In this document: positions 11,801-56,279 of the stretch, piece after piece | How positions within the stretch are numbered: position 1 is the stretch's first letter | Layout of the letters: each line of letters starts with the position of its first letter | The notes under the pieces: model-generated | Seen by the model: only the letters and a program-made list of their open reading frames with translations | Told to the model about the DNA's origin: nothing | Databases searched by the model: none | Source: a virus | Virus record (IMG/VR): IMGVR_UViG_3300032315_001715 | Coordinates: 124,001-188,000 of that record | Length of the DNA stretch: 64,000 nt | Direction: 5' to 3' (one strand) | Translations under genes and position numbers: made by a program

Positions 11801-11991
11801 ACGATCTCATCACGCTTGGTTTCCCAAGACGTTTTGCATTCGTTGAGGAATTCTTCCGTAGACGGTGAATCTAGGTTAATGCTCATTTGGACCCCATAAA
11901 CGTTCTTAAGGGTCGATATTATCTGATTAAGCCTGGCCTCGCCCGACGTTTCAAAGTAGTTAAGATACATTCTAACAGAACTCCCGGCCAT
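8842..11991 (-). CDS. Very large multidomain virion/internal protein
   Basis: The 1049-residue protein is modular. A helical N-terminus (1-100) ends in RRRRR. Next come repeated LGRAMMQWSQD and LGRAMMDYSQN units (about 125 and 211), a DKDGDKDFADVQIARM segment (about 310), a helical SRSELYRNSKYAMSML module (about 395), an acidic linker, a KOW-like segment (KKVNVTNP..YEIIKIDGDKITLKK, about 700) and a C-terminal KSNKDDFKKRYG..W segment. Composition is helical, polar and highly charged, as in internal or scaffold proteins. A perfect TATAAATA late box lies 26 nt upstream. An alternative start at 11970, preceded by GGGAG, is plausible. Confidence 0.65.
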   Translation of the reverse strand: MAGSSVRMYLNYFETSGEARLNQIISTLKNVYGVQMSINLDSPSTEEFLNECKTSWETKRDEIVSESSFNSYQQNPEYIKSMLILEAVRIMLTELAPKRRRRRMAESTETSMEETMSPDLNDNISLGRAMMQWSQDQRGTDDATLRKMNAFSRVGEKLVNQGTAFQSPLTANEQKVKAYAKAMFAKQAAVSESPSGLSEQASMLDLFAELGRAMMDYSQNPGIDASMMGGKDETVLADLNAISKVGDKITTLKTSFGPTGITKSDLQVIMKAMPRVASKINLDPADLTRLQNIVSNTAKKAGLTVSEASVDQDKDGDKDFADVQIARMVAGGMPKPAAIAKTKDKEYNKESAGDESIMENMIDEPSGAPAATGQLTLPAGGKAVGHAHHYEYQASMSRSELYRNSKYAMSMLKQIDPQAEVQPWIAGALTKAAGLLDKVYHYLDYYKKFEPEELPEGDEDAGLGETSGGVSRQNLMLIMEYSIKLFEMIKPGDKLEGWVAMKLTTASECISSCKHYMDYVQFEQHAMDDHFADGIKATRKEVVESIQNLSEQEDLAKASTILAAKDMSTNVQDIAEDVAKMSVEDLMPLVNIMRSQFGQEVAMGFNSTVKAALDELLKVTTNTKETMDAAIDTLNSGGIPAATSDIESAGTEGGEEGDDSDISADLAAIGTETGPTAAQGETEPLGRAKKDEVAESLAVGKKVNVTNPKATPRYEIIKIDGDKITLKKPDGSEMTLPKARIMRANPGLTEGKIPDAFKKNIEKMKAKAKNKKADNTKKEEVDEALDSEISASTRDLNNKKAELKKLEKQKASGVNLGNKDLNKEIANAKAAIKKLSKQVNESEVEETAPPGKKAEDFIKSNKDDFKKRYGNRWQEVLYATAWKQFGKKDESFVSTGKALAEAKVELQQLEAQMLAHRNEFKSLLKEGTASDPLQMGYGLEGDSILDRIAVVNKTIAAAKNTIRQQMQEGVIGMLRTIESLNKAAALEEVKNITPYGVIYTTKSGRKSKKMFESADARAYWLELKADMINNPRMIEPESFTSAINRAARG

Positions 11992-12044: not shown

Positions 12045-12356
12045 TTAGATTGAAAAGCTATTACCACACCCGCAAGTGCCGGTTGCTGCCGGTATATCAA
12101 CGGTAAAATATGAACCATCCAAGCTGACCTTGTAATCGACGGTTGCTGTGTCAATTATATCCAGGCTTGACTGATCTACGATCAATGATCCGGTACCACA
12201 AGCAAACTCAACATCGTCATCTGACACAGATTGATCAAAATCCCAGACCTTGTTAAAGCCTTGGCATCCGCCGGATTCGACGGATAACCTAACTAGCTTG
12301 CCATGCTGGCGGCACAGATCATTAATTTTAGTTTTAGCCGAATCGGTGAGTATCAT
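12045..12356 (-). CDS. IscA/HesB-type iron-sulfur cluster carrier
   Basis: The 103-residue protein (ATG overlapping the previous TGA) matches A-type Fe-S carriers in length and layout. ILTDSAKTKI opens it, the first ligand is C31 in ESGGCQGF, and the C-terminal pair C95-G-C97 lies in GTCGCGNSF. All three canonical Cys are present, so it should bind a cluster or iron and deliver it to apoproteins. It ends a small operon of head-protein candidates. Possible clients are a viral PD-(D/E)XK nuclease or the Rieske oxygenase of the island; neither link is proven. Confidence 0.88.
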   Translation of the reverse strand: MILTDSAKTKINDLCRQHGKLVRLSVESGGCQGFNKVWDFDQSVSDDDVEFACGTGSLIVDQSSLDIIDTATVDYKVSLDGSYFTVDIPAATGTCGCGNSFSI

Positions 12357-13000
12357 TTTACCAAATTCTTGATGTTCTTTTTCGCAGCCATGCAACGATC
12401 CAAGCTAGCTTGATATCTGCTTTCAAATATATCACGTTTTGATGCATCAACTGCTGTCGACATTTTCTTCTTGTACATCAAAGCGTCTACCTTGTGAGAA
12501 GAATACTGGTCATCCTGTTCGAACAGGGTGCGAACTTCTTGGCTGTTTGCAAATCGACCAGCGTTTAGCAATCTAACCACGCCAAGTGCCGTTTCGTACA
12601 GGCTTATGTCGTCGGCAATGGTGTCACTGGTCAGGCTGTTGTAGATGCTGTAAAACTGCTTACCAGCAATCCGTTTAGGATCATCTTTGATCATGATTTG
12701 ATATCTACCAACCTTAACGCCGGTTTCTAATCTCTCGGTATTAAGAGCTTCTGATATCTGCGGGGATGATGCACCTTCCGTGATCATACCGTCAACCACA
12801 TGATTGCTCAATGAATTGAGCCGCGTTAATACCGATGCCATTGCGTTTACATCTGACCGTGTTATCTGTCCAGGTCCGGCTAACTCAATTGCTGATTCAG
12901 CAAGCGCTGTTGATCTAGGAGCATCGGGCGGCGTTTCCCCGTTCATCAATTGCAGTATTCGAGCCATTGCATCTCGATCTTCCGGTGTTACGGCTGTCAT
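12353..13000 (-). CDS. Hypothetical protein, late operon
   Basis: The 215-residue protein is not recognised. It is largely helical, with a central segment GVKVGRYQIMIKDDPKRIAGKQFYSIYNS, an amphipathic region SLYETALGVVRLLNAGR, and a basic C-terminus. It is translationally coupled to the IscA-like gene (ATGA) and follows a 76-residue gene by 1 nt. It is probably virion-associated by position only. Confidence 0.6.
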   Translation of the reverse strand: MTAVTPEDRDAMARILQLMNGETPPDAPRSTALAESAIELAGPGQITRSDVNAMASVLTRLNSLSNHVVDGMITEGASSPQISEALNTERLETGVKVGRYQIMIKDDPKRIAGKQFYSIYNSLTSDTIADDISLYETALGVVRLLNAGRFANSQEVRTLFEQDDQYSSHKVDALMYKKKMSTAVDASKRDIFESRYQASLDRCMAAKKNIKNLVK

Positions 13001-42748: not shown

Positions 42749-43363
42749 TTAGCCATTAACAAAAAGAGGAACAGCCAATTCATTACCTTGAGTTGCGTTG
42801 TCGTAGCGAATTGTCAAAGTAATCATTGTCGGGTCAGAGCTAGAATAATCCATTTGATCATACTGTACCTGCTCAAGGAAGCAGCCCTCGAGGAACCATT
42901 CTTCAATAACGTTGGCAGGATATGCCATGGTACCATCGAGAGTTTGCATCAAGCATCCAAACTTGTAATTAACATGGGAACGAGCAGCACTCTGGCTAAA
43001 ATGATTCATCTGCTTTTGCAGTTGAGCGCTCACCAACCCAGAAACGCTATTGGTAATGTCGTCACGAAGGGCTATCTCAACGGTCTGCCATTCTGGCTTG
43101 TTAGCATAGTATGCAATGTTGTTGTAGCTGTGCAAGGCGGTATTGTTGTGCTGTAGCTGTGGTCGACCAGCTGTAGCAACCTGTTTGGTAAAATCGATCG
43201 GATTAATACCAGTTTGGCCAAAGCCCAACATCTGAACCCTGAACCGATGCTTTAGTTTTGGCATCAAGATCCCGCCTGTTAGGCCGGCCGAGTTACTAGG
43301 TACCCCGAATCGATTTAAGGTTCCGGTTTGCGTTATCGGATTTTGATTTGGAATGAGTGACAT
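42749..43363 (-). CDS. 19: Tail tube protein gp19-like
   Basis: The 204-residue protein is a T4-like tail tube subunit. KLKHRFRVQMLGFGQ and DFTKQVATAGRPQLQ match the tube family. Then come KPEWQTVEIALRDDITNSVSGLV, QKQMNHFSQSAARSHVNYKFG and VIEEWFLEGCFLEQVQYDQMDYSSSDPTMITLTIRYD. T4 gp19 is 163 residues. It polymerises inside the sheath (52245-56279). A GGAGG site and ATAAATA box precede it. Confidence 0.9.
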   Translation of the reverse strand: MSLIPNQNPITQTGTLNRFGVPSNSAGLTGGILMPKLKHRFRVQMLGFGQTGINPIDFTKQVATAGRPQLQHNNTALHSYNNIAYYANKPEWQTVEIALRDDITNSVSGLVSAQLQKQMNHFSQSAARSHVNYKFGCLMQTLDGTMAYPANVIEEWFLEGCFLEQVQYDQMDYSSSDPTMITLTIRYDNATQGNELAVPLFVNG

Positions 43364-43393
43364 GGTATTAACCTCCGTGTGTATGTTGTAAGT

Positions 43394-43400
43394 TATTTAT
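43394..43400 (-). promoter_or_regulatory. Late promoter ATAAATA before tail tube
   Basis: Minus-strand ATAAATA, 31 nt before the gp19 start, with GGAGGT between. Confidence 0.6.
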
Positions 43401-43417
43401 TCCAGGAGGTGTTTTTA

Positions 43418-44017
43418 TCACCGGCTGCTTGACAGGTCTGGATCGCAAGTGAGGGCAACAGGGTTCCCATTAGACTTCATCAATCGATCCCAGGTGGTTG
43501 CATGGCACAGATCGAGGATTATGTGTGTTCGTATTTCATTGCCGTTGTTCACCGCGCTGTGCTGCGTTCGATTATTGATCTCGTAGATATGCCCGGGTTC
43601 TAGATGCTGGGAAAAATCCCTCCATAGTTGCAGGCATTTTTCATTGGTTTTTACCGGAACATGTATCCTATGGCAGTGCTCGTGGAACCATGCTGGATCT
43701 CGATGCCATCCCAGCTGAACCCCTGGCATCAATGTAGCAACTTCCCCTCGTAAAAACACATGGTTGTCAAACATGGATATCACTTGATCGCATACCGGTT
43801 TGCACAATTCAAGCAGGGTTCGTTGATCATCGGTAAGGTGATAATCTCTCGACTTGATCGGAAACGGAAACACCACCAACTTTCCGTCCTTTAATGGCGG
43901 TTCGTGTCTAGCATATTCCTCTTGTATCCAGTTCATCATGTTGCATTGATGAGCAATCGGTTCTATAATTGATATGTCAATCGTTGTTAGGTGCTTAACA
44001 AAGCCATCAAAATCCAT
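43418..44017 (-). CDS. Aspartyl/asparaginyl beta-hydroxylase-like 2OG-Fe(II) oxygenase
   Basis: The 199-residue protein has the Asp/Asn beta-hydroxylase layout. GWH105RD107 and HRIHVPVKTN come first. The distal H153 lies in NNRTQHSAVNNG, and R163 in EIRTHIILD is the likely 2OG-carboxylate ligand. Substrate is unknown. It overlaps the divergent GNAT-like gene by 2 nt and opens the metabolic island on the tail-tube side. It could share the metabolite or peptide substrate of the island. Confidence 0.8.
   Translation of the reverse strand: MDFDGFVKHLTTIDISIIEPIAHQCNMMNWIQEEYARHEPPLKDGKLVVFPFPIKSRDYHLTDDQRTLLELCKPVCDQVISMFDNHVFLRGEVATLMPGVQLGWHRDPAWFHEHCHRIHVPVKTNEKCLQLWRDFSQHLEPGHIYEINNRTQHSAVNNGNEIRTHIILDLCHATTWDRLMKSNGNPVALTCDPDLSSSR
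43941..43969 (+). promoter_or_regulatory. Sigma70-like promoter TTGCAT-N17-TATAAT for the island operon
   Basis: TTGCAT (43941-43946) and perfect TATAAT (43964-43969), 17 nt apart, lie inside the antisense hydroxylase gene. Transcription would start about 40 nt before ATG 44016. No late box precedes this operon. Confidence 0.6.
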
Positions 44018-44654
44018 GGAAATCTCCGATCAAAACTTCTCAAGTATATATGAATGCGAACAGATAGCAAGTGATAACATCACACAATCAACATGGAATG
44101 ATTTGGTACGATTTGTAGAATTACAAACGTCTAAGTCTCCCAACCATGTTGCATTGTCGAACATGACCAACGAAGCACCGGCAGGTTTGCTGCATAATAT
44201 CGCGTCGAAAGCACGATGGACCAGCGACGTCGGAGAAATCGCACTGTTGCGGGCAAATGGTCAAATCATTGGGATCAGCTGCGTTGAATTCAGCGAGCTG
44301 CATTGCCAGCTTTCAGTCGGCGGAGCTAGATGTTGGCTGGATGATCAACATCGATCAAAACAGCTGATGAGCAGATATCTGTTAGACGCTAATCTGCGAT
44401 GGAGCCAAAATCGCCAATTATCAGGCATGCTGCTGACCTTTAACCATTACAATAAATGGATATATAATGGCATCAATCGAGCTGCTAATGGAAAAGCCGT
44501 TGGCATTGGATCGGTTTGGAGCAATTGGTGGGACGATTGCAAACCATTACCAAATCCAATAACCGTAAGATACACCAAACAATGGTGTGTGATCAAACCG
44601 CTAGCTAACCACGGACTAGACAACATCATCCAGGAGATTTTGAATTCCCAATGA
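44016..44654 (+). CDS. GNAT-like acyltransferase candidate
   Basis: The 212-residue protein (ATG 44016, after the proposed sigma70 start; an ATG at 43974 would leave no leader) has the GNAT-like order. A beta segment GEIALLRANGQIIGISCVEF is followed by a weakly conserved acetyl-CoA loop and helix (LDDQHRSKQLMSRYLLDANLRW), then GMLLTFNHYNKWIYN. This suggests transfer of an acyl group to an amine. First gene of the six-gene island run, overlapping the PP-loop gene by ATGA. Fold assignment is tentative. Confidence 0.45.
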   Translation: MEISDQNFSSIYECEQIASDNITQSTWNDLVRFVELQTSKSPNHVALSNMTNEAPAGLLHNIASKARWTSDVGEIALLRANGQIIGISCVEFSELHCQLSVGGARCWLDDQHRSKQLMSRYLLDANLRWSQNRQLSGMLLTFNHYNKWIYNGINRAANGKAVGIGSVWSNWWDDCKPLPNPITVRYTKQWCVIKPLANHGLDNIIQEILNSQ

Positions 44655-45595
44655 CTGATCTGTATTCAAAATTTGAACTATCAAAAAATAACCATATTCG
44701 ATATTGGTTTAATAACGATTGTAATCAAATATATAGGAATCTCGCCAATGAAAGCTCGCACATGAGCCTCGGCGGCGCCATTAGCAAGACAACCGTTTCA
44801 TTTCTAGACTCATTAATGAATTCTGCCCGAGAAATTGGTGGAAAACATCATGGTGAGTTCCATCTGTTTCTCAGTGGCGGTCTTGACAGCGAGTTAGCAT
44901 TTCGATCATTCATTAGAGCCGGTGTTAGATTTCGTCCAGTGATTGTAAAATTTTCAAATAATCTCAACATCGAGGATGTTGTTGGTGCGATTACATTGTG
45001 TGCAACAGCTAACAAGGATCCTATCATTGTTGATTTTGATCCACTTGAGTTTTTTCTATCTGAAGATTGGAAGCGGATTGCTGTTAGCTACCAAGCACAC
45101 ACGTTTTATCAACAACTATTGATAAAGATCGCTGAGAATCTAGCCGCACCAATGATAACCATCGATGAGATTGAGATCAGCCGGGGTGACAGGGGTATTT
45201 GGAAATTCGTAAAGAAGGAGGACCAAGACGGTTGTTGGCATCGATTCGTCGAAAAAACCGGAATTCCGGCATACAATAATTTCTACACATACGATCCTCG
45301 TACCATCATCGCATTCATGTCTAGCCGTCGAATCAAATCTCTAATCAACAACGATGTTCACGGAAAGCTATCTTGGAACAGCAGCAAAAATGAGGTATAT
45401 TTCGAGTTGACAAGATTAAATATGGCCAAAAGACACAAGCGCCATGGCATGGAAAGAATGATGCATATCTGGGAATACGTTGAGAACGCAACATGTTTAT
45501 TAATGCCCGGCAGCCCGAGGACGTTTGAATATTCGGCCATACCTCTCCAAGCCAATCTACGAACCATGGAAGAGATGACATGCAATACCATATAA
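44651..45595 (+). CDS. PP-loop ATPase related to asparagine synthetase
   Basis: The 314-residue protein has the adenylating P-loop FLSGGLDSELAF (SGGLDS 75-80) of asparagine-synthetase/ATP-pyrophosphatase enzymes. It then has a VVGAITLCATA helix and KDPIIVDFDP strand. No glutaminase N-domain or ThiI/TilS features are apparent. It would activate a carboxyl or amide by AMP and join it to an amine. It is coupled to the GNAT genes on both sides, so it may build an amide bond in the island product. Confidence 0.7.
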   Translation: MTDLYSKFELSKNNHIRYWFNNDCNQIYRNLANESSHMSLGGAISKTTVSFLDSLMNSAREIGGKHHGEFHLFLSGGLDSELAFRSFIRAGVRFRPVIVKFSNNLNIEDVVGAITLCATANKDPIIVDFDPLEFFLSEDWKRIAVSYQAHTFYQQLLIKIAENLAAPMITIDEIEISRGDRGIWKFVKKEDQDGCWHRFVEKTGIPAYNNFYTYDPRTIIAFMSSRRIKSLINNDVHGKLSWNSSKNEVYFELTRLNMAKRHKRHGMERMMHIWEYVENATCLLMPGSPRTFEYSAIPLQANLRTMEEMTCNTI

Positions 45596-46152
45596 GATGG
45601 ATCACCCACAACGATGCCAATAATGTTATGGCATTGTCTAAACACATATATGAAACCGACAAGGAATCATATCCCACCAATCTCAACGTATCCAACCCAA
45701 ACATTCTATCTGCATTTTTCGTATCAGAAGACATCACCGGATCATATAATCGCCGCGCTATTGGAATCTTCGACAACAACCAACGCCTTGTTGCTGCTAC
45801 CGGTACCAGGAAGATGGATTTCATACCGGTCTGGGTCCTAAGCTGGACACTGAGCAGCATTAAAACCGCACAGTTTGGATCCATCTGGCAAAAACAGCTT
45901 GGAATGCTTACGGACGATTTTGAAAGTCGAGGTATTAACGAATTTTACGTGGTAAGCCCTGCTAGCAGGGAGCTTGCTTACAAGAAAATGATGAGATTCA
46001 TGAGAAAACGCTACTGGACCTTCGCCGAGCTTAACATCAGTGCTGGTACCAAGCCTTCCCACGGATTGCATTGGATTATCATGGGAAATCAACTGTATTC
46101 GTATGATATAAACATTCGACGATATATCTTAAAAAGGGGGGACAATGATTAA
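45580..46152 (+). CDS. GNAT-like acyltransferase candidate
   Basis: The 190-residue protein has beta segments RAIGIFDNNQRLVAATGTRKM and a helix-strand pattern INEFYVVSPASRELAYKKMMRFMRKRYWTF suggestive of an N-acyltransferase fold. It overlaps the PP-loop gene by 16 nt and the desaturase gene by 8 nt. No catalytic motif is decisive, so this assignment is provisional. It could supply or use an acyl chain acted on by the desaturase. Confidence 0.4.
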   Translation: MQYHIRWITHNDANNVMALSKHIYETDKESYPTNLNVSNPNILSAFFVSEDITGSYNRRAIGIFDNNQRLVAATGTRKMDFIPVWVLSWTLSSIKTAQFGSIWQKQLGMLTDDFESRGINEFYVVSPASRELAYKKMMRFMRKRYWTFAELNISAGTKPSHGLHWIIMGNQLYSYDINIRRYILKRGDND

Positions 46153-47011
46153 CTGGATCAAATACACATGGCAAACATATAAGGTTACCGGGCAGATCCC
46201 ATACATTATTTCAATTTGGTTGCCTTTTCATCTTCTTTTAGTAGCTGGTATTGTTTTAGCCATCACAGCGTGGTCGTGGACTTATCTGGTGTATTTTGTA
46301 ATCGGATGGACCATTTTTGGTGGTCTCGGCACGGCAGTGATGCTGCATCGCCACGTGTCCCATCGTTCGATCGTCGTTAGAACCTGGATGAAACCAGGCT
46401 TATATTGGATCGGATGCTTGGCTGCACAGGGATCACCAATTTGGTGGGCCGCGTTGCATCGAGGCTACCATCACGCACATTCTGATAAAGACAAGGACAT
46501 ACACAGCCCAATCAATGGGTTCTGGCATGCATACATGGGCTGGATGTTTGGAATCAAACACGATTCAGTTAACCTCAAATACGGAGTCGAGCTGCTGAGA
46601 GATAAGCAGTTAATATGGTTCCATAAGAACTACAACATGGTGGTATGGGGATCAATTGTCGTGATGGCACTGATAGACCCTATGTTTTGTCTGTGGTTTT
46701 ATATCATACCAGCTATGGTTGGTTTACATACTGATAGCCTTGTAAACAGCGTGTGTCACACCATGGGTGCCGGATATCGACCGTTCGACACCAAGGATCG
46801 TAGCCAAAATGTTTGGTATCTCGGATATCTAGGCTGGGGCCAAGGTTGGCACAATAATCATCATTCTGATCCAAGAAGCTATGACTTTGGTACCACCGTT
46901 AGCAAAAAATGGTGGGAATTTGATCCGTGCATGTTATGGGTTCCAATCATATCGCCCTGGGCAGAAACTAAGAAAATTTGGGCACAATGGAGGAATTCAT
47001 GCGCTGGATAG
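46145..47011 (+). CDS. Delta-9-type fatty-acid/acyl-lipid desaturase
   Basis: The 288-residue membrane di-iron desaturase has three histidine boxes. They are H68-R-H-V-S-H73, H105-RGYHH-AHSD (105-113) and H236-N-N-H-H240. Long hydrophobic segments at about 25-57 and 165-195 flank them, with the box-2 tail DKDKDIHSP. It would insert a double bond in an acyl chain in the membrane using O2 and an electron donor. It is the clearest membrane enzyme of the island and overlaps the next gene by 13 nt. Confidence 0.9.
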   Translation: MINWIKYTWQTYKVTGQIPYIISIWLPFHLLLVAGIVLAITAWSWTYLVYFVIGWTIFGGLGTAVMLHRHVSHRSIVVRTWMKPGLYWIGCLAAQGSPIWWAALHRGYHHAHSDKDKDIHSPINGFWHAYMGWMFGIKHDSVNLKYGVELLRDKQLIWFHKNYNMVVWGSIVVMALIDPMFCLWFYIIPAMVGLHTDSLVNSVCHTMGAGYRPFDTKDRSQNVWYLGYLGWGQGWHNNHHSDPRSYDFGTTVSKKWWEFDPCMLWVPIISPWAETKKIWAQWRNSCAG

Positions 47012-47628
47012 CAATAGGAGCTACCGTTGAAAACGTTGTAATTGCTGCACACGACGAAATAACACTGCTAGAAACCATAGCCGAGCATGATTTCGACGTC
47101 ATCGTAAAGATATATGGATTGTCTGATGGTGAGTATAACGAAATCAAATCAGGCAACTATGAGTATCGAATTCGATTCAATAATCTAAGAAGCGTTTATC
47201 TTGAACGCATTGGTCGCAGCGAGGAAACCAAACAGCTATCTAGAATTTATACCAAACGAATACAACAAATGGTTGCAATGCGGGGTCGATACGAACATGC
47301 GTTCAACAAACACCGAGCGTTGCTGAGCCAGCAGTATGAAATTTATGAATCCAAGGCCATGGAAGCCAAGGACATCATCAACAACCAGAATAGCGCATTT
47401 TTTCTCGATGGGTATGTTAAGGATTATGCCGAGGAAGCCAACATGGATGTGTTGGCAGCAGCAACACTGATCTGGGCCAAATACACCAACTGGCACGAAT
47501 ATCTTCGAAAGATCGAGCGACTTCGCCTGCGGCATTTCAATGCACTCAAGACCGCCAAGACTGATGAGGATTTCCTTGCGCTTGCTGCCCAGGTCGACAA
47601 AGACTTCTTTATTAACATGCTGATGTAA
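46999..47628 (+). CDS. Unknown island protein, helical
   Basis: The 209-residue protein is read from the ATG 5 nt after GGAGG; upstream TTG and ATG codons are less likely. It is mainly helical (EETKQLSRIYTKRIQQMVAM, MDVLAAATLIWAKYTNW, YLRKIERLRLRHFNALKTAK). No known motif is seen. The high Lys/Arg/Tyr content and the operon position suggest an accessory of the pathway, possibly carrier or binding protein. This is inference. Confidence 0.6.
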   Translation: MRWIAIGATVENVVIAAHDEITLLETIAEHDFDVIVKIYGLSDGEYNEIKSGNYEYRIRFNNLRSVYLERIGRSEETKQLSRIYTKRIQQMVAMRGRYEHAFNKHRALLSQQYEIYESKAMEAKDIINNQNSAFFLDGYVKDYAEEANMDVLAAATLIWAKYTNWHEYLRKIERLRLRHFNALKTAKTDEDFLALAAQVDKDFFINMLM

Positions 47629-47638
47629 AGGAACGGCC

Positions 47639-48718
47639 ATGGAATTAGTTTATTACACCCCTAACAAGCTGTATTCTTATCAAGATATTCGAAGGATTGA
47701 TCCGATGCAGGTGTCGTTTTCACAGATGTTTAATCCAAGCATCAGCTTGATGGATCGAACAGGATCAATTAATTGTCCACCTGTGTCGGTTAAGATCCTA
47801 GATAGTTTCCCGGAATGGACATCGCCGCCAAGCTTCGAGGAACTATGTTACTCGAGGTATGATTCGATATTGCAGCAAGCATTATCCTCCAACAAGACCG
47901 TGGTGATCTTCTATTCCGGTGGGATCGACAGCACGCTGATAGCGGCATTAGCAATCGCACATCCGGATTTCCATCGCCATCGAAATAATCTGCTGTTGGC
48001 GTTTAGCGAGGAAAGCATCAAAGAAAATCCAAAATTTTGGTATGACCGATTGTTGCCAGCGTTTGGGCATCGGATCATAAATTCAAACGGATATCATACG
48101 CATATATCTGACCCAAACAATGTATGCATCACCGGTGAATTTGCTGACAACATTTTTGGTAGCCTAACGGTTAAAAGCTACATGGATGTTAGTGGCGACT
48201 TTGATGCTATACAAAAGCCTTTTGCAGATACTGGAAGATTTTGGCTCTTAAAGAAAATCACCAGTCCTGCTGATCGAGATCGATGTGGTGATATGATGGA
48301 CAAGATCTTCGCAACCAGTCCCAGACCAATGGTGTCAAATCATGATTGCCTGTGGTGGTTGAATTTTGTGCTAAAGTGGCAAGCTGTTAAATTCAGGCTA
48401 GCTAGCCATGCACCTACACCCGATATGGTTGATCTCATGGCTAAAAATGTGGTCCATTTTTTTGAAACCAAGGAGTTTCAAAACTGGGCGGTGATGACCG
48501 ATGAACCAAAGGTTGAAAAGGATTGGTACAGCTATAAGCTGCCAGCAAAGAAGCTAATACATTCAATCAATGGCGACGATTATTATCTACGCTGGAAGAC
48601 CAAGTATCCTAGCATACCCGGATTGACCAGGTATGCTAATACACACGATTTCATATATTGGGACGAACCCAATGATCGATATGTTGCATCAAAGGATTAT
48701 CTATTACCTCTGAAGTGA
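47639..48718 (+). CDS. Asparagine-synthetase-like PP-loop amidotransferase
   Basis: The 359-residue protein has SGGIDS (93-98) and the AsnB-specific motif TGEFADNIFG (165-174, TGEGADELFG in AsnB). The glutaminase N-domain is absent; residues 1-60 are a short beta-rich module. Such C-domains are used for carboxyl adenylation and amide or lactam formation. It is last in the island run, after AAGGAA, and converges with the 2OG oxygenase gene. Amine source and substrate are unknown. Confidence 0.75.
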   Translation: MELVYYTPNKLYSYQDIRRIDPMQVSFSQMFNPSISLMDRTGSINCPPVSVKILDSFPEWTSPPSFEELCYSRYDSILQQALSSNKTVVIFYSGGIDSTLIAALAIAHPDFHRHRNNLLLAFSEESIKENPKFWYDRLLPAFGHRIINSNGYHTHISDPNNVCITGEFADNIFGSLTVKSYMDVSGDFDAIQKPFADTGRFWLLKKITSPADRDRCGDMMDKIFATSPRPMVSNHDCLWWLNFVLKWQAVKFRLASHAPTPDMVDLMAKNVVHFFETKEFQNWAVMTDEPKVEKDWYSYKLPAKKLIHSINGDDYYLRWKTKYPSIPGLTRYANTHDFIYWDEPNDRYVASKDYLLPLK

Positions 48719-49446
48719 TCGTAAAGGCCGGTTCGATTTAAAAAGTCATCTGAGAACACGCCGTCGATCCTTAGGCTCCAATTGGCAAACTGGCAGGGTT
48801 CTGAACCGTGCCAGTTTGCGTTATCAAAATATATCACCCGAGAATCGGTATAGTGTTTGGTACCGTCGTTATCTAACACGAAGAATCGCTTGAGGGAGTT
48901 CAAGGTTAACCATATGAATTCGTTTCGATGGCTTCGAGGATTGGGATAATCCCGATGTGTTACGGTTTTAACGCCCGGTTCGTTGATGAACATCACCACA
49001 CGACCGTATTCGTTAAATACATTTTGGGAATCAATCCATTCAAATAGAAATTTGAAATCATTGGTAACGGGGGTATCAATGCAACTATCGTGCAGATGTT
49101 TCGTGCTGTAATGGTCCTGTTTCATCACACGGATATACATCGCTTGGTTCAAGCTAACCACCGGATGCATGTATTTGCAATAGGTGTAAAATCTACCAAG
49201 GCTTCCCAGCTTCGTGGCAATCTGTCTTGCATCTGAGGTTGGATCCCCTACCAAACCTTTTGCAAAGTCACCAAGCTCAATTTGTGTTTGATCATATAGA
49301 TTTGCTTGCACACCAACCAAACTGGTATAAATTTGTTCAGGATATTTGGCAATGGCATATGCAAACGCAGATTGGTGCTGTTCAAGCGCAGAAATATCTA
49401 TGTGGGTTGATAGATCAACCCACGGTTGATCGTTGACAAGATGCAT
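48697..49446 (-). CDS. 2OG-Fe(II)-oxygenase-like protein
   Basis: The 249-residue protein starts at the ATG preceded by GGAGAG. The longer ORF reading from 49536 is unlikely. Core motifs are VKTVTH164RD166, the distal H213 in NANWHGSEPC, and R226 in NWSLRIDG. The strand VMFINEPG-VKTVT-HRD is typical for beta-hydroxylase relatives. A divergent sigma70-like promoter with the Rieske gene lies just upstream. Function in the island is probably hydroxylation. Confidence 0.7.
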   Translation of the reverse strand: MHLVNDQPWVDLSTHIDISALEQHQSAFAYAIAKYPEQIYTSLVGVQANLYDQTQIELGDFAKGLVGDPTSDARQIATKLGSLGRFYTYCKYMHPVVSLNQAMYIRVMKQDHYSTKHLHDSCIDTPVTNDFKFLFEWIDSQNVFNEYGRVVMFINEPGVKTVTHRDYPNPRSHRNEFIWLTLNSLKRFFVLDNDGTKHYTDSRVIYFDNANWHGSEPCQFANWSLRIDGVFSDDFLNRTGLYDHFRGNR

Positions 49447-49473
49447 GTTACTCTCCGAAATTGATGTTGACTT

Positions 49474-49502
49474 TTGGCATGTCTGCCTACATCGTTTATA
49501 AT
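49474..49502 (+). promoter_or_regulatory. Sigma70-like promoter TTGGCA-N17-TATAAT for the Rieske gene
   Basis: TTGGCA (49474-49479) and TATAAT (49497-49502) with a 17-nt spacer, 28 nt before the Rieske ATG. Near-perfect consensus. Confidence 0.65.
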
Positions 49503-49524
49503 TAAATACATACAGATAAGTCAA
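49495..49524 (-). promoter_or_regulatory. Divergent sigma70-like promoter TTGACT-N18-TATAAA
   Basis: On the minus strand TTGACT (49519-49524) and TATAAA (49495-49500) with an 18-nt spacer drive the 2OG gene at 49446. It shares its -10 with the plus-strand promoter, so the two overlap. Confidence 0.5.
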
Positions 49525-49529
49525 ACCAG

Positions 49530-50555
49530 ATGTCATTAATCATTGATCCACGTAGTTATCATCAACAAGAAGACCACACACAATGGCCTTCTAGATTCCC
49601 AGCATGGTTGACTACAACGCAGGATTTATCCCCCGGAAGCTATGTGGTTCCTGATCACGATCACTCGATAGTCATGTTGGGAGGAGAACAACCTCGATGC
49701 ATGGCCAACGTCTGTACTCACAAACGATCCGTCATTCTCAAGGGAAGGGGACAGATCGGATCGGTGATGACCTGCCCGATACATAAATGGACATGGAGCT
49801 TAACCGGAAAGCTACGCGGCGCTAGGGGTTTTGAAAAAAGCTGCGAAATGGATCTCGAGGAACACCCGATACACACATGGCAAAGCCATATTTTTGGCGG
49901 AAATCAAAGCTGGCAAGAGGACATTGGATCTCTTGGCGATCTTGCCAAATGGTTGGATATACAGGACTATCAGTGGCATAGCGGATCAAGATTAAGCTAC
50001 GCATTTGATTGGAAGATTTTCATGGAAATCTTCCTAGATCTCTACCATGTTGCACCGTATCATCCTGGACTTCGAAGCTTAACCGATTGCAACACATTTG
50101 ATTGGATATTTGGCAAGCATTGGAGCTGTCAAACCGCTAAGTTTAACAGGGATTGGCCAAATGAGCTTGGTTATAGGGAGTTGTATAAGCTTTATCAGAA
50201 ATCAGGTCACTACGATTCGGCGATATATGGTGCGGTATGGTTGGGAATCTATCCAAACATCATGATCGAATACTATCCGGGATCAATCGTTGTTAGTACG
50301 GTATGGCCTGACGGACAAGGTAAGTGCGTTAACCATCTTGATTTTTATTATGAAACGTGGTTGTTGGAAAAATTTCCAGAGTTTCCTGCGGTATTCCAAA
50401 ATACGTTCATGACAACCGCCGACGAGGATGAAGAAATCGGGCTTAGGATGCAAGAAGGGTTATCATTGACCAAGACCCCATTTAAATCAATGAACCACAA
50501 GATTGAGGAAGCTGGGTATCAGCATTTCCATCAATGGTTACAAACGTATCTTTAG
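49530..50555 (+). CDS. Rieske non-heme iron oxygenase (ring-hydroxylating/demethylase-type alpha subunit)
   Basis: The 341-residue protein has the Rieske cluster C62-T-H64 and C82-P-I-H85. The mononuclear iron site is at D170-LYH173-VAPYH178, with a carboxylate near D298/D300 in TTADEDEEIGL. The C-terminal EEAGYQHFHQWL segment also fits. This is a complete Rieske oxygenase catalytic subunit, which hydroxylates or demethylates small substrates with O2 and an external reductase. No reductase or ferredoxin is visible, so host electron transfer would be needed. A sigma70-like promoter precedes it. Confidence 0.92.
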   Translation: MSLIIDPRSYHQQEDHTQWPSRFPAWLTTTQDLSPGSYVVPDHDHSIVMLGGEQPRCMANVCTHKRSVILKGRGQIGSVMTCPIHKWTWSLTGKLRGARGFEKSCEMDLEEHPIHTWQSHIFGGNQSWQEDIGSLGDLAKWLDIQDYQWHSGSRLSYAFDWKIFMEIFLDLYHVAPYHPGLRSLTDCNTFDWIFGKHWSCQTAKFNRDWPNELGYRELYKLYQKSGHYDSAIYGAVWLGIYPNIMIEYYPGSIVVSTVWPDGQGKCVNHLDFYYETWLLEKFPEFPAVFQNTFMTTADEDEEIGLRMQEGLSLTKTPFKSMNHKIEEAGYQHFHQWLQTYL

Positions 50556-51097
50556 ATAGAGCAAGCTACCAAATGTATTCGAGGTGTCCATCCGCCGTTG
50601 AAAACAAAGTGCTCTTTGGCGGTATGGACCCTGTACCAGTGACCATCAGATGGTAAATGATAACATATTGATCTTATTGAACTTTTTTCAAAGCATTCGC
50701 CAAATATTGCATTAAGGTTAGTGTCGATCGCTAGGTGATATCTATATCCGTCGTCCTTATGCATCGTTAGTCCGGTCTTGGGCATTAGTCGCATGAATCT
50801 AACCCTGCCCCATTTTACCCCAAGTGTCGATGAGAGATTTTTCAGTACACCCCTGGTATAATCAGGACATTGATCGTTCCATTGATCAAAATCAGATTCA
50901 ACGGCTAAGGTCTTTTTGGCAACGGTATCATATATCCACCCAGTGCAGTCTTTCCATTGGTCTGATGCATTAATTCGATGCCTAAGCCCAATTTGATTAT
51001 TTGATTCCCACGATGTCATTGACAACATCCGTTGAAGATCAGAACGAATCTGATCAAGATCAACGGTACCTTCTATTTTTTTGATAAAATCACTCAT
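50552..51097 (-). CDS. 2OG-Fe(II)/beta-hydroxylase-like protein
   Basis: The 181-residue protein has H113-K-D115 in LTMHKDDGYRYHLAI, distal H163 in AKEHFVFNGGW and R173 in PRIHLVA. The phage pattern of a short beta-hydroxylase-like oxygenase is clear. It overlaps the methyltransferase-like gene (start 51677) by 8 nt, so the two are co-translated, and it meets the Rieske 3' end. Substrate unknown; a modification step of the island product is likely. Confidence 0.7.
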   Translation of the reverse strand: MSDFIKKIEGTVDLDQIRSDLQRMLSMTSWESNNQIGLRHRINASDQWKDCTGWIYDTVAKKTLAVESDFDQWNDQCPDYTRGVLKNLSSTLGVKWGRVRFMRLMPKTGLTMHKDDGYRYHLAIDTNLNAIFGECFEKSSIRSICYHLPSDGHWYRVHTAKEHFVFNGGWTPRIHLVACSI

Positions 51098-51677
51098 GAT
51101 TCTTTCTACCTATGATCATGTATCTAGAAAAATTCCACGTCGGATAATTGAAATCAAGCTGGCCTTTATACATCATCGGGGATAGACCATAGTTTGAGAC
51201 AAATGATTCTAGATCATCATAGCAATCATGATGATCGTCATGCGGCATGTTATTGCTTTGCAATACCATCATGGTACCAGACGGTATGCGATCATACCAA
51301 TCCCTGGAATGAAAATGTTCGGTGCTGGTATTAATCACGATATCCGGTGGTGGTCCATATTCTCCGCTGATTGGATCTATGGAATTACAGTCTCGGGTAA
51401 ATGCCTTGAATTTCCAACCTTGCCATATCCAATTTTCCATCAGGCTATCAGCTGTTGATTCACAGCTCGGATCAACATCAAAGCTCCTGATGTGTGATAT
51501 TGGCATGATCTGCCTTGCTAGCAACAGCATTCCGGTCATAGCGTGCCATCCACCGTATAACCAAATTATCTGCGGGCGATCGTACTGCATCCGTTCCAAT
51601 TGAGAACAAAGCCATAACTTGCTTGATATCTGGCCGCTGCTAAAAGCATCCCTACTGACAAGAAACTGATCAGCCAT
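51090..51677 (-). CDS. Class I SAM-methyltransferase-like protein
   Basis: The 195-residue protein has a Rossmann-like order: motif I IIWLYGGWHA (37-46), motif II IRSFDVDP (63-70) and the post-II strand DIVINTSTEHF (112-121), followed by a SGTMMVLQSNN strand. The classic GxGxG loop is changed to YGGWHAMTG. It probably binds SAM or NAD and methylates a small molecule. It is coupled to the 2OG-like gene. Confidence 0.6.
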   Translation of the reverse strand: MADQFLVSRDAFSSGQISSKLWLCSQLERMQYDRPQIIWLYGGWHAMTGMLLLARQIMPISHIRSFDVDPSCESTADSLMENWIWQGWKFKAFTRDCNSIDPISGEYGPPPDIVINTSTEHFHSRDWYDRIPSGTMMVLQSNNMPHDDHHDCYDDLESFVSNYGLSPMMYKGQLDFNYPTWNFSRYMIIGRKNHE

Positions 51678-52244: not shown

Positions 52245-55200
52245 TTACGCAGAACCTCCTGGTAGAGGATCGCCAGTATTGAGTATCCTGATCGGGATAT
52301 AGATGAACTCAATCGCCTTTTCTGGCTTGATCGCAATATCAATCCACAGCTCGTTCCTGTCAATTCTTTCAGCGGTGTTGTTGCTGTCGTCGCAAACCAC
52401 GGCAAAGTCGTACACTGCCCGCAGAGTTTGCAGGTTGCGCATGAAGGAATTAAACGTAGCAACGACGTTCTGGCGCGTTTGCTGATCGTTAGGCTCAAAG
52501 AGGAACGGTTTTGCAAGTATATCTAGGTTGTATTTGAGATAGTTAATCAGCCGTACAACGTTGATTCGATCCAGTGCCGTGGGCACCGGGCTTAGGGTCT
52601 TCTGACCATATACCACAAGTCCTCGACCTGGAATGAACGCGATCGGATTGATCTTGTTGGCGTAGAGAACATCGCGCTGGCCTTGATTCAACCGGACCAC
52701 GCTGTATTCTTCCTCGGCATTGAGATATCCAACGCTTGCTACACCGGTAACCAATCCTCGGTTGAATCCTGCCGGAGCAAACCACGGATATGCAACCTGA
52801 TCGCTGTATGCTATGGTACGAAGGGCCATCATCGCCGCCGGTACCATTACTTCATTACCGTTGAGATCCGTTCCAAGACCCCAAGGATAGTAAAGGGCTG
52901 CATACGGAGTGCTGCTGGTTAGTCCATCTGGACCATTGCTTGCTGCACCGTTCTGATTGTTAGCCCATTCCGTGAACGCGGTGCCAGTTGGTTCTAGCGT
53001 TGCAGGTGTGTCAGCTACGATAAACGCAACTTCCTTCTTGTCAACATTTAGGGTGATCATTTCATCCAAGCATTCAACATATCCGGGGGTTGAAATGAGG
53101 TTGAAATAGGTTTCTTCGGCACGTGCTTCCTCGTTACCACTAATCGCACCCTGCAACCCGCGCACGATGACAGCCCTCTGTGCTGCATCGCCCATGTACG
53201 GTGCACCGTTGAGCTGATTGCCACTTTCGGTAACCCAACGGTCACGATAAGAATATGTCGTCGGTAGGTAGTTCTTTCGGAACACCTTGACGTTGTTGGT
53301 GCTGTAACGGGTATTAAACAACATCATACCGGCTGGATACAACATTGCATCTGGGCAATCTGGATCAACATAATCGCTGGTAACCATATCACTTTCAATT
53401 TGGCTGCCAGTTGCGGTGCCGTTAGCATTTGGACGTGCATCGGCAAACACGATCCCCTTGCTGGTGGTTCGATCGGTGTTATCGACCAACACCCAGCTTG
53501 CATCCATGCTGCTGTATCGATAGATTGCCGGATATGTCGATACGTTGGTATCAATCCAGATATCGTAATCAACCAATGCACCAAGAGTGCTTTGCTCAAG
53601 AGGAGCCTCGCTTGACAATATCGGTCCGTTTGGATCAGTTGCTGGATATGCATTCCTATAGCCAAGCCACTGTGTTCCGTTATTGACCATGATATCGGCA
53701 CGCAACGTTGTATTGTACCAAAGTGTGCCATCAACCGGAGTACCGCTCGGAGCAGACGCTGATGGAGTATAATCTAGGTCAACCCACGAAGTTCCATCCC
53801 ATTCCTTGATGACATGCGATGCTTCGGCCGGAGATGTGTTGTCGCTGTTATACAGCACAAACACGCTGCCGATTTGCTTGAGACTACCAAATGCAACATC
53901 AGCTGCCGACGTCGACGAATACATGGGAACCGTACCGGTGTTCGGCCTAATGTTTAGGGACCGCCATGCAGCTCCGGTATAGGTCTTAACCGAGTAGTTT
54001 GCACCTTGGTTTCCCGGCGTGGTGTTGATCCACACATTGGTAGCAGCGATGCTGGATAGATCAGACGGTACAGTTAACCCTGGTGAATAACCCTGGTAAA
54101 CCAGCGAACGACCAAAGGTTACACCTGCAGCAATTCCGGCTCCTGCCAATGGGCTTTCCCTGATATCCTCAAGGATAAAACTGGTGCCATTGGTGTTGGT
54201 AAGTTTCAGCATGTTGTCGGTGGTCTTGCTTGCTACGATCGGACCGTTAGGGAATCCAACCGTATTGATTTCTGCAATCAATCCATCCAAGGTATTGTTA
54301 GGAAGGGCCGGAACGTGGATTATCACCGGGCCGCTGCCTGCGTCAATGCTGAAACTCACGCTCTGCAACCAGTCATCTATAAGATTAAACGTTGCGCCGA
54401 CTCCACCACCGGTGACCGACACCGGATTAGTTGGGTATATCGTATAGCTACCAGGAGTGGTAACAGTTACAGTGTTTACACCCCATACCAAGTCAACCGT
54501 TGCACTATCTCCGCCGCCGGAGGTCGAAGTTGCTGATACGTTTGTGGTAGGAGCAACAGCACCGGTATATTGACCAGCCTGGACAATGCTCAGCCCGGTA
54601 ATACCGTTCGATCCATCAATGCTGTCAACCTTCAATATCACCGGTGTTGCAAATCCAGCTCCGCTAAAGGTCAGCGTGTCATTAACATCGTATCCGCTAC
54701 CTGGGACGTTTGGAGTGCCTCCGACGACCTTAATGCTAGCGACTGTCAATACCGTTGCCGTGCTAAAGGTACCTCCAGCAACCGTCAACGCATCACTAAC
54801 CGCGTATCCGCTGCCAGCTGCTACCGAGGTAGCGCTTGCGGTCTTCAGCGTTGCTGCGGTAAACGTTGGATTGCTAACGGTGCCGGTTACGCTGGCCCAA
54901 TAGGTGTTGGTAGGAAGTATTCCTGCATTCCTCCACGGTGTTCCGACGCCATACTGATCACTGAGATCATTAACGATGATGTCGGTCGAATCATAGTTGG
55001 TTATGCGTAGATATTTTTGGCTACCAACGGTGTACACAGATGCCACGGCATTAACACTGGCCGTGTTAAGTGCAGTGTTGATTGCACCGACAAATCCAGT
55101 CAGCGTGCCACCAGATGGTACCGTAATCGTTGCTGTGCTCACTGCACCGATCGTGATCTTGCACTGAGTGCCGGCGGTAAATGTTGGATTTGCAACGGTT

Positions 55201-56279
55201 CCAGTTAACACACGCGGAGCAGCTTCTCGCCATCCGTATCCAGGATATGTATCATCGGTGCTGCCAACCTTGAACCACCAATTAGCCGTACCAGTGTTGG
55301 TGTTGACAGATATCTTTTCCCAGATCTCATTCTTGTAGCTACCGTCAGCCGCTTCGAGGGTATTCACGGCAAAATCACCAGAGGCGCCAAAGATCGTGGT
55401 AGGTAACACAACGTTGTCAGGCAGTGCTGTAAATCCTAAATCGGTTAGGATTCCGGCGGTTGAGCCGCCAAGAACAATGTCCTGTATCATGTTCGAGGTA
55501 ACCAGCCTTAGGCTAAACACGTCCCCGTAATCAGACGCCGATGGCGAATACTTTTCAGATCGAACAAAGACCTGTGCGCGAACCTGCTGTGTAGCAAGTG
55601 CTGGACTTCCGTTGATCTTGCTAGCCACGGTCGAAATGCTCATCCCTGCGGTTAGTGGCAAGGAAACACCGTTAACAATGAGATTTCCGTTGGCATTAAT
55701 GCAGCTACCAGATCCGCTGGTAATCTTCACAGTTGCATTACCTTGCACGATCTTTTCGAGATTTAAGCTAGAATTAATAACCAATGGCGTGCGGGCCTGC
55801 CAGCTAAATGCCGGGTTTGGATTACCATTGCTACGGAAGATGCCAAACGTGGACGAGCTTAGGTCAAGCCAATTTTGTCCGGCAGTTACAGGACCGGTCG
55901 GTTCGGTCGAAGTTGGGATCAACTGTCCAAGATCAACATTGGCGCGGACCACATATGCTTGATTGGCAATTCCGAGGTACTCATACAAGGTGAAAAGTCC
56001 AAGCTCGTTAAGCTGATTGCCCTGCTGCACGGTGCCAGCTGAGCTGTAAAACTGCGGATTGCCAAACGTCTGCAACGCATCTCGCTGGCTGGTAATCAAC
56101 CATAGCTTGCCGGCATTTTCTGCGGTGGTTCCAGGAGCAACGGACGTCGCACTACCTGGTTGCAGCTTGTTCTGCTTGGTAGCGATTACGATAAATGGTA
56201 CGGTGCCCGGTCCAGCTGGGCCATATTGGCTTTCGTCGGTTACGGTAACGCTTACACCTGGAGAAACTAAAATAGCCAT
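52245..56279 (-). CDS. 18: Tail sheath protein gp18, greatly enlarged
   Basis: The 1344-residue sheath is twice the T4 gp18 length (659). The conserved N-terminus MAILVSPGVSVTVTDESQYG and the C-terminal contractile domain from about residue 1000 (VAFIVADTPATLEPTG... VNVVRLINYLKYNLD..AKPFLFEPND) are standard. Between them lies an insertion of about 360-900 with small repeated domains. These include GSGY repeats (near 489, 527 and 568), TGTVxNPTFTA modules, and a fibre-type unit LWYNTTLRADIMVNNGTQW. The insert probably decorates the outside of the sheath. GAGGTAACAA and a late box precede it. Confidence 0.95.
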   Translation of the reverse strand: MAILVSPGVSVTVTDESQYGPAGPGTVPFIVIATKQNKLQPGSATSVAPGTTAENAGKLWLITSQRDALQTFGNPQFYSSAGTVQQGNQLNELGLFTLYEYLGIANQAYVVRANVDLGQLIPTSTEPTGPVTAGQNWLDLSSSTFGIFRSNGNPNPAFSWQARTPLVINSSLNLEKIVQGNATVKITSGSGSCINANGNLIVNGVSLPLTAGMSISTVASKINGSPALATQQVRAQVFVRSEKYSPSASDYGDVFSLRLVTSNMIQDIVLGGSTAGILTDLGFTALPDNVVLPTTIFGASGDFAVNTLEAADGSYKNEIWEKISVNTNTGTANWWFKVGSTDDTYPGYGWREAAPRVLTGTVANPTFTAGTQCKITIGAVSTATITVPSGGTLTGFVGAINTALNTASVNAVASVYTVGSQKYLRITNYDSTDIIVNDLSDQYGVGTPWRNAGILPTNTYWASVTGTVSNPTFTAATLKTASATSVAAGSGYAVSDALTVAGGTFSTATVLTVASIKVVGGTPNVPGSGYDVNDTLTFSGAGFATPVILKVDSIDGSNGITGLSIVQAGQYTGAVAPTTNVSATSTSGGGDSATVDLVWGVNTVTVTTPGSYTIYPTNPVSVTGGGVGATFNLIDDWLQSVSFSIDAGSGPVIIHVPALPNNTLDGLIAEINTVGFPNGPIVASKTTDNMLKLTNTNGTSFILEDIRESPLAGAGIAAGVTFGRSLVYQGYSPGLTVPSDLSSIAATNVWINTTPGNQGANYSVKTYTGAAWRSLNIRPNTGTVPMYSSTSAADVAFGSLKQIGSVFVLYNSDNTSPAEASHVIKEWDGTSWVDLDYTPSASAPSGTPVDGTLWYNTTLRADIMVNNGTQWLGYRNAYPATDPNGPILSSEAPLEQSTLGALVDYDIWIDTNVSTYPAIYRYSSMDASWVLVDNTDRTTSKGIVFADARPNANGTATGSQIESDMVTSDYVDPDCPDAMLYPAGMMLFNTRYSTNNVKVFRKNYLPTTYSYRDRWVTESGNQLNGAPYMGDAAQRAVIVRGLQGAISGNEEARAEETYFNLISTPGYVECLDEMITLNVDKKEVAFIVADTPATLEPTGTAFTEWANNQNGAASNGPDGLTSSTPYAALYYPWGLGTDLNGNEVMVPAAMMALRTIAYSDQVAYPWFAPAGFNRGLVTGVASVGYLNAEEEYSVVRLNQGQRDVLYANKINPIAFIPGRGLVVYGQKTLSPVPTALDRINVVRLINYLKYNLDILAKPFLFEPNDQQTRQNVVATFNSFMRNLQTLRAVYDFAVVCDDSNNTAERIDRNELWIDIAIKPEKAIEFIYIPIRILNTGDPLPGGSA

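Follow-up and report, generated by a model that had tools for sequence, protein, structure and literature searches.

The closest described relatives of the enzyme reported here are the carnitine monooxygenase CntA/YeaW, a group Va Rieske oxygenase, and the group Vb enzymes Stc2 (stachydrine demethylase) and GbcA. According to the excerpts of PMC7948474 at hand, Tyr203 of CntA grips the quaternary ammonium group through a pi-cation contact and can be replaced by Phe with retention of activity, mutants of Glu205 are inactive, Glu205Asp included, and group Va enzymes carry an aromatic residue at CntA position 203 where group Vb enzymes have Asn. Among phage-borne auxiliary metabolic genes, the nearest precedent is provided by the cyanophage lipid desaturases, which are named in an entry of the reference list of PMC11480375. 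The usual view of phage auxiliary genes is that each adds one enzyme in support of a host pathway.

The gene considered here lies in a 64,000-nucleotide stretch of viral DNA (the window), comprising bases 124001-188000 of a 452,799-base virus record (IMG/VR record IMGVR_UViG_3300032315_001715), a jumbo phage. It is a complete open reading frame (gene i, 49530-50555, plus strand) with an ATG start and no internal stop, and its 341-residue product matches the Pfam families PF00848 (Ring_hydroxyl_A, 1e-27) and PF00355 (Rieske, 8.9e-10), both above the curated cut-offs, and no PHROG family at E <= 0.1. In an alignment of 24 rows (20 viral and 4 from Legionellaceae), the [2Fe-2S] ligands of the CxH...CxxH motif (C62, H64, C82 and H85), the mononuclear iron ligands H173, H178 and D300, and the bridging residue D170 are invariant; the latter four align with His208, His213, Asp323 and Glu205 of CntA. 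The AlphaFold2 model (mean pLDDT 91.1) contains the Rieske and SRPBCC-type catalytic fold, with CntA as the top Foldseek match (E 1.9e-21) and a VIA-align Z of 30.2 against CntA (2.6 A over 320 residues, 18% identity); stachydrine demethylase and terephthalate dioxygenase rank within 1 Z unit of CntA. The product is thus the catalytic subunit of a Rieske oxygenase, and it is best read as a single-subunit-type monooxygenase that is predicted to work. The original prediction of a complete enzyme with both iron sites intact is borne out, and no ligand of either site is degenerate. It is the only Rieske-domain match (E <= 1) in the whole record. A sigma-70-like promoter match (TTGGCA-17-TATAAT, 11/12; 49474-49502, plus strand) 27 bp before the ATG is only a hint of a possible promoter, because the region is not richer in promoter-like sites than its shuffles (18 found versus 24.4 expected).

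The substrate pocket was compared with CntA through an Acinetobacter CntA-like protein (L087, annotated frame) as the alignment reference, which places F168, D170, F190, E247 and L270 of the window protein at CntA positions Tyr203, Glu205, Tyr225, Asn270 and Tyr295, respectively. The aromatic residue typical of group Va is therefore present as F168, whereas none of the three carboxylate contacts of CntA (Tyr225, Asn270, Tyr295) and not the bridging Glu205 is kept. An aromatic residue at position 203 occurs in 20/20 phage rows, in 29/29 bacterial rows and in all outgroup rows, so that it does not separate the phage and bacterial family from the outgroups. Glu at the Asn270 position is found in all 20 phage rows and in 28 of the 29 bacterial rows. 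As far as residue identities can tell, the family would keep the cation-gripping aromatic and swap the carboxylate contacts for an invariant Glu, an arrangement that would suit a cation lacking the carboxylate of carnitine. Because F168 occupies the ammonium grip of CntA and the invariant E247 the place of Asn270, a cationic amine group is probably the part of the substrate likeliest to be bound in the predicted F168/E247 pocket. The bridging Asp is not common to all phage copies: it is present in 20/20 rows of the tree described below, but nine of eleven further phage loci with the full motif have Glu (L202, L204-L207, L209, L213, L215 and L223).

The window enzyme hence resembles CntA/YeaW in fold, iron ligands and the aromatic at 203, but it differs in its low identity, in Asp for Glu205 and Glu for Asn270, in the loss of the carboxylate-binding tyrosines, and in that no CntB-type reductase was found in the phage record. 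The fold of the group Vb enzymes is likewise similar (Stc2, Z about 29), and GbcA is the best NCBIfam model, at 32.2 bits against a cut-off of 670 bits; in contrast to the Asn given for position 203 of Stc2 and GbcA in the excerpted text of PMC7948474, the window enzyme has Phe. It is a member of neither the CntA nor the GbcA family. The closest cellular proteins form a single-copy Rieske subfamily of Burkholderiales and Legionellaceae (31-36% identity) that shares the E247 signature in the 28 bacterial rows noted above but mostly has a bridging Glu (24/29 rows) and, in many members, adjoins dxs and ispA. A chlorophyll oxygenase of the PaO/CAO type was rejected since the PaO C-terminal domain, which we take to be PF08417, is absent from the Pfam matches at E <= 0.1. 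An aromatic dioxygenase was also rejected: among the families in the fold list it ranks below or ties with the quaternary-amine enzymes. No beta-subunit of a multi-subunit aromatic dioxygenase was seen among the ten window proteins scanned with Pfam. Of the classes first proposed (betaine demethylase, PaO/CAO type or aromatic dioxygenase), the quaternary-ammonium monooxygenases are thus nearest by fold, but the protein belongs to a separate subfamily.

It had further been claimed that no ferredoxin or reductase accompanies the oxygenase, and this held for the whole record, in which Fer2, NAD_binding_1 and Flavodoxin_1 gave no match at E <= 10; control searches for these domains were positive in 11-13 of 14 known genomes. 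Fer2 was above its cut-off in none of 25 Rieske virus records, which may be fragments, and the one weak match (0.0104) holds a stop. Since the enzyme is intact and the record contains none of these redox partners, electrons would have to come from a host ferredoxin or reductase, which would tie use of the gene to aerobic hosts with a fitting ferredoxin. An IscA-like open reading frame is present in the window (12045-12395, minus strand), and the phage carries two IscA-like genes (G000:C1:136060-136356 and 351688-351990). The suggestion that this carrier helps to load the Rieske cluster was abandoned, because IscA matches are commoner in control phages in which no Rieske gene is known (19/26 records) than in Rieske virus records (12/26), in a comparison of a hand-chosen control set with records of differing length. 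IscA adjoins the Rieske gene in three loci (L023, L025 and L026), and it is a background gene of these phages.

The Rieske gene is truly viral. PHROG matches nearby include a terminase, a UvsX-like recombinase, a DnaB-like helicase, a tail tube and a tail sheath, and further phage genes around it encode an ssDNA-binding protein and a primase. The tail tube gene (42749-43363, minus strand; phrog_4542, 7.2e-47) and the tail sheath gene (52245-56279, minus strand; 1344 amino acids; phrog_10581, 2.3e-257) flank the neighborhood on the left and right. The sheath is nearest to that of Agrobacterium phage Atu_ph07 (42.7%), so the description of the virus as T4-type holds in the broad sense of its UvsX-like, helicase, terminase, tube and sheath genes but has to be qualified for a jumbo phage of this affinity. 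A second contig (L002) is identical to the window over 19,797 bp, and in an independent phage (L001; 77% identity at the protein level) the genes between tail tube and sheath stand in the same order. The gene is under purifying selection in phages, with a pN/pS of 0.181 between the window and L001; three further phage pairs give 0.022 to 0.171, and two of the four pairs (window/L001 and L023/L024) have a saturated dS. That the gene represents bacterial contamination, a chimera or decayed cargo is therefore extremely unlikely: phage genes flank it in independent contigs, all iron ligands are retained, synteny and selection speak against it, and nothing was found in its favor.

Between the tail tube gene and gene j, the window virus carries 7,188 bp (43364-50551) where nine empty related loci, some of them near-duplicates, have only 19-128 bp between the tail tube and gene j or k, identifying the block as an insert. 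Gene i is the edge gene of this insert and adjoins the 2-oxoglutarate (2OG) oxygenase gene j (50552-51097, minus strand; Asp_Arg_Hydrox, PF05118, 1.1e-8), which is part of the backbone in the window lineage, as some relatives have gene j without the insert. Beyond it lies gene k (51090-51677, minus strand), a widespread neighbor conserved in 68 viral loci, in some of them beside tail genes. The first gene of the insert is gene a (43418-44017, minus strand), an Asp/Asn-hydroxylase-like 2OG oxygenase (TIGR04531, 4.8e-5, below cut-off; its L001 homologue matches PF05118 at 9.7e-8). Six genes on one strand follow, of which b to f overlap their neighbors by 4 to 34 bp. Gene b (43974-44654, plus strand) is probably GNAT-like, judging from a distant homologue (L111:6613-7074; Acetyltransf_1, 4.7e-5) with 22% identity in the alignment, and gene d (45580-46152, plus strand) appears GNAT-like by eye only and has no Pfam match; both assignments are weak. 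Gene c (44651-45595, plus strand) would be a second PP-loop protein, for which the SGGxDS motif is the sole basis in the window (its L004 homologue matches Asn_synthase at 0.028, below cut-off). Gene e (46145-47011, plus strand) encodes a membrane fatty acid desaturase with hydrophobic segments and His boxes (PF00487, 2.4e-14), gene f (46978-47628, plus strand) has no Pfam match and travels with the cassette, and gene g (47639-48718, plus strand) encodes an asparagine-synthetase-type PP-loop ATP-pyrophosphatase of 359 amino acids. Gene h (48697-49446, minus strand; the frame could start at 49536) is an accessory gene that looks 2OG-oxygenase-like by eye only and has no Pfam or NCBIfam match. 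Genes a, h and j lie on the strand opposite to b-g. The original prediction had thus missed that the Rieske gene is not an isolated auxiliary gene but belongs to a multi-enzyme cassette that has been inserted.

The SGGIDS motif of gene g is invariant in 15 rows, and its model (pLDDT 87.7) is closest to the hydroxyamidotransferase TsnB9 (Z 13.4, 4.8 A over 260 residues), followed by asparagine, beta-lactam and carbapenam synthetases at Z 10-12 and the next family at 7.4, with weak Foldseek E-values (6.8e-4). The Pfam match is confined to the synthase domain and, at 20.7 against a cut-off of 21, narrowly misses the threshold. The protein resembles these enzymes in the fold of the synthetase domain (Z 10-13), but it shares just 12-15% identity with them and, unlike them, lacks the glutaminase domain, which was not found at the N-terminus of its 359 residues. 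The best inference from the model is that gene g may catalyze ATP-dependent adenylation and amide formation.

The block is mobile and is common to other aquatic phages in rearranged form, in which a TauD gene is often present and the Rieske gene absent. In one locus (L118), the window backbone is found with genes b-g but lacks the Rieske gene. A search with gene g returned 23 viral loci, and profiles of the cassette genes were run on 95 loci (L090-L184), made up of the gene-g loci and further ones. Genes c, e, f and g, partly with d, h, j and k, occur together without a Rieske match in L094-L097, L100-L104, L107 and L110-L111, where their order takes three or more forms, and gene h was found by its own profile in the cassettes of L094-L101. 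In the profile matrix, the desaturase is present in 16 of 22 gene-g loci and the Rieske gene in three (L090, L092 and L093); with L001, the 23rd locus, which has both and was scanned under other locus names, the Rieske gene is found in 4/23. TauD oxygenases lie in or adjoin the Rieske-less block in L094 and L104, and a TauD gene stands beside the Rieske gene in L003. L094 also has a PF04116 fatty acid hydroxylase near its block, and the block of L104 encodes a radical SAM protein. More generally, the Rieske-less PP-loop/desaturase blocks of L094-L111 are accompanied by TauD, short-chain dehydrogenase, radical SAM or ThyX-like genes. Viewed from the Rieske gene, a PP-loop gene, a desaturase gene or both lie within 3 kb in 10 of 29 non-redundant phage loci; such genes number 19 inside this distance and 6 at 3-9 kb. 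The ten loci come from differing phage backgrounds, namely the window lineage, L017 and L006/L007 (both PP-loop), L025 (desaturase), L191 (PP-loop, Rieske, desaturase, desaturase) and L227 (two desaturases, Rieske, PP-loop). The other 19, several of them on short contigs, have neither gene within that distance, and the Rieske enzyme must therefore often act without the cassette. Gene g had no match at E <= 1e-10 in 398 cellular genomes, a search run without a positive control and hence no proof of absence.

Scans of IMG/VR with growing alignments found 4, 6, 25 and then 43 viral contigs with a Rieske relative (29 after removal of duplicates and clustering at 90%). In a set of 50,697 phage records, the window protein found only six matches, which belong to a single assembly, 'Acinetobacter phage MD-2021a', and the protein of L026 as query added one human faecal phage contig with a partial match of 31.6%. 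The one MD-2021a match opened (region H1) lies in a bacterial carnitine-type gene row with a YeaV transporter, oxidoreductases and a semialdehyde dehydrogenase, and these CAKLQH/CAKLQF records resemble bacterial contigs labelled phage. The supposed rarity of Rieske oxygenases in phages therefore applies to sequenced phages but not to metagenomic viruses. In the titles and abstracts searched, which mostly leave out subscription papers and preprints, no paper on a phage Rieske oxygenase or on this cassette was recognizable.

The nearest cellular sequences are from Legionellaceae (33-34%) and Burkholderiales (about 32-33%). A sample of 398 genomes from the phylum to which the Legionella genome G026 belongs contains 34 with a single match each (E <= 1e-20, 31-36% identity), and dxs and ispA lie beside the gene in 15 of the 20 loci fetched from these 34; the Legionellaceae copies and the other five lack these neighbors. 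On a named Mitsuaria plasmid the order is dxs, polyprenyl synthetase, xseB, Rieske, and a single-copy Rieske oxygenase beside xseB-ispA-dxs is seen in the bacterial loci L012-L014 and L060-L078. In Caballeronia grimmiae (L015) the homologue directly follows IucA/IucC siderophore genes. A phylogenetic tree was built from 57 rows; five identical viral rows had been removed, L002 (identical to the window) was not entered, L031 gave no full reading frame, and the loci found later (L191-L227) are not in it. The phage rows form two main groups among the bacterial rows. Clade A (L019, L020, L022-L028 and L034; support 100/100) adjoins three bacterial rows, and the window group (window, L001, L003, L004, L006, L007 and L017; support 100/99) sits inside a set (97/88) shared with Legionellaceae and further bacterial rows. 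A single viral capture was rejected, as the phage label has to change three times or more on the tree. One of these changes depends on the very long row L007_v2 and comes with a long-branch warning; two or more captures of the Rieske gene probably occurred.

Our preferred reading, to which we assign a probability of just under one half (about 0.48), is that the Rieske enzyme serves as a swappable, host-driven tailoring monooxygenase of a mobile phage biosynthetic cassette for an amide-bearing lipid or small molecule. It rests on the insertion at a defined site, the recurring PP-loop, desaturase and 2OG neighbors, the intact iron sites, the CntA-like fold and the purifying selection. The PP-loop proteins would form amide bonds through ATP-dependent adenylation, the desaturase would edit an acyl chain, and a 2OG, TauD or Rieske oxygenase in an exchangeable slot would hydroxylate or dealkylate the product, with a host ferredoxin or reductase feeding electrons to the Rieske enzyme, so that an amide-bearing lipid or small molecule would be built or remodelled in the infected cell. 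As with the cyanophage desaturases cited above from a reference list, a membrane desaturase is phage-borne and the metabolic genes are host-derived, but here the desaturase shares a single mobile block with genes for amide-ligase-type, 2OG and Rieske enzymes. Against this reading, the bacterial relatives adjoin isoprenoid genes and not such cassettes, few gene-g loci include a Rieske gene, and most Rieske loci have no PP-loop or desaturase gene nearby. It is a possible but doubtful extension that aquatic phages share a mobile cluster whose product, made during infection, is a novel natural product or amide-bearing lipid. The cluster would comprise two PP-loop proteins, at least one of them an amide ligase of the asparagine-synthetase type, proteins resembling acyltransferases, a membrane desaturase and a Rieske/TauD/2OG slot whose occupant can be exchanged, and the Rieske enzyme would oxidize a cationic group of the product. 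With its demand for oxygen, its insertion between virion genes and its interchangeable oxygenase, the multi-enzyme cassette suggests that phages produce or remodel a compound that is theirs and not the host's. If this is true, secondary or lipid metabolism directed by a virus could be put to the test here.

The 19 of 29 loci without cassette-type neighbors would also be expected if the enzyme acted alone, demethylating or cleaving a quaternary or tertiary amine of the choline, betaine or carnitine kind and thereby supplying carbon and nitrogen or altering osmolytes, with its neighbors unrelated. CntA and stachydrine demethylase are indeed the closest folds, and an aromatic residue occupies the Tyr203 position, at which Phe supports activity in CntA; however, the three carboxylate contacts are F, E and L in the window enzyme, Asp takes the place of the bridging Glu205, a change that kills CntA (both mutants in the excerpts of PMC7948474), identity to CntA is 18%, and no transporter or aldehyde dehydrogenase was seen adjoining, unlike in the bacterial relatives L084 and L087. 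We consider such stand-alone amine oxidation unlikely. The bacterial homologues suggest another role, in which the phage gene would replace or boost the single-copy host gene, whose xseB-ispA-dxs site hints at isoprenoid-linked or other housekeeping oxidation. The placement of phage rows among bacterial ones, the single gene in each of the 34 genomes and its frequent dxs and ispA neighbors agree with this, but identities of only 31-36%, the Legionellaceae copies and the five fetched loci without dxs or ispA, and the different neighbors of the phage copies do not, and we give this account little credence as well. Lastly, the Rieske enzyme might oxidize a modified base in DNA or tRNA, given that it stands among GTP-cyclohydrolase-, QueD- and QueE-like genes (by eye) in L020, L021 and L028 and near nrdA and a thyX-like gene in L023-L026. 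Genes of all these types are, however, common in phages, the window cassette holds a membrane desaturase, and gene g folds as an asparagine-synthetase-type protein and not as QueC, making a role in nucleic acid or nucleotide modification highly improbable.

In the phage contig L007, a second, divergent Rieske oxygenase (10997-11872) directly follows the first and precedes another PP-loop gene, and a relative of this second enzyme is present in L227. At about 13-19 kb, both L007 and L017 contain two TctA-like transporter genes, each with a gene for a TctC-like binding protein, together with nrdA- and nrdB-like genes.
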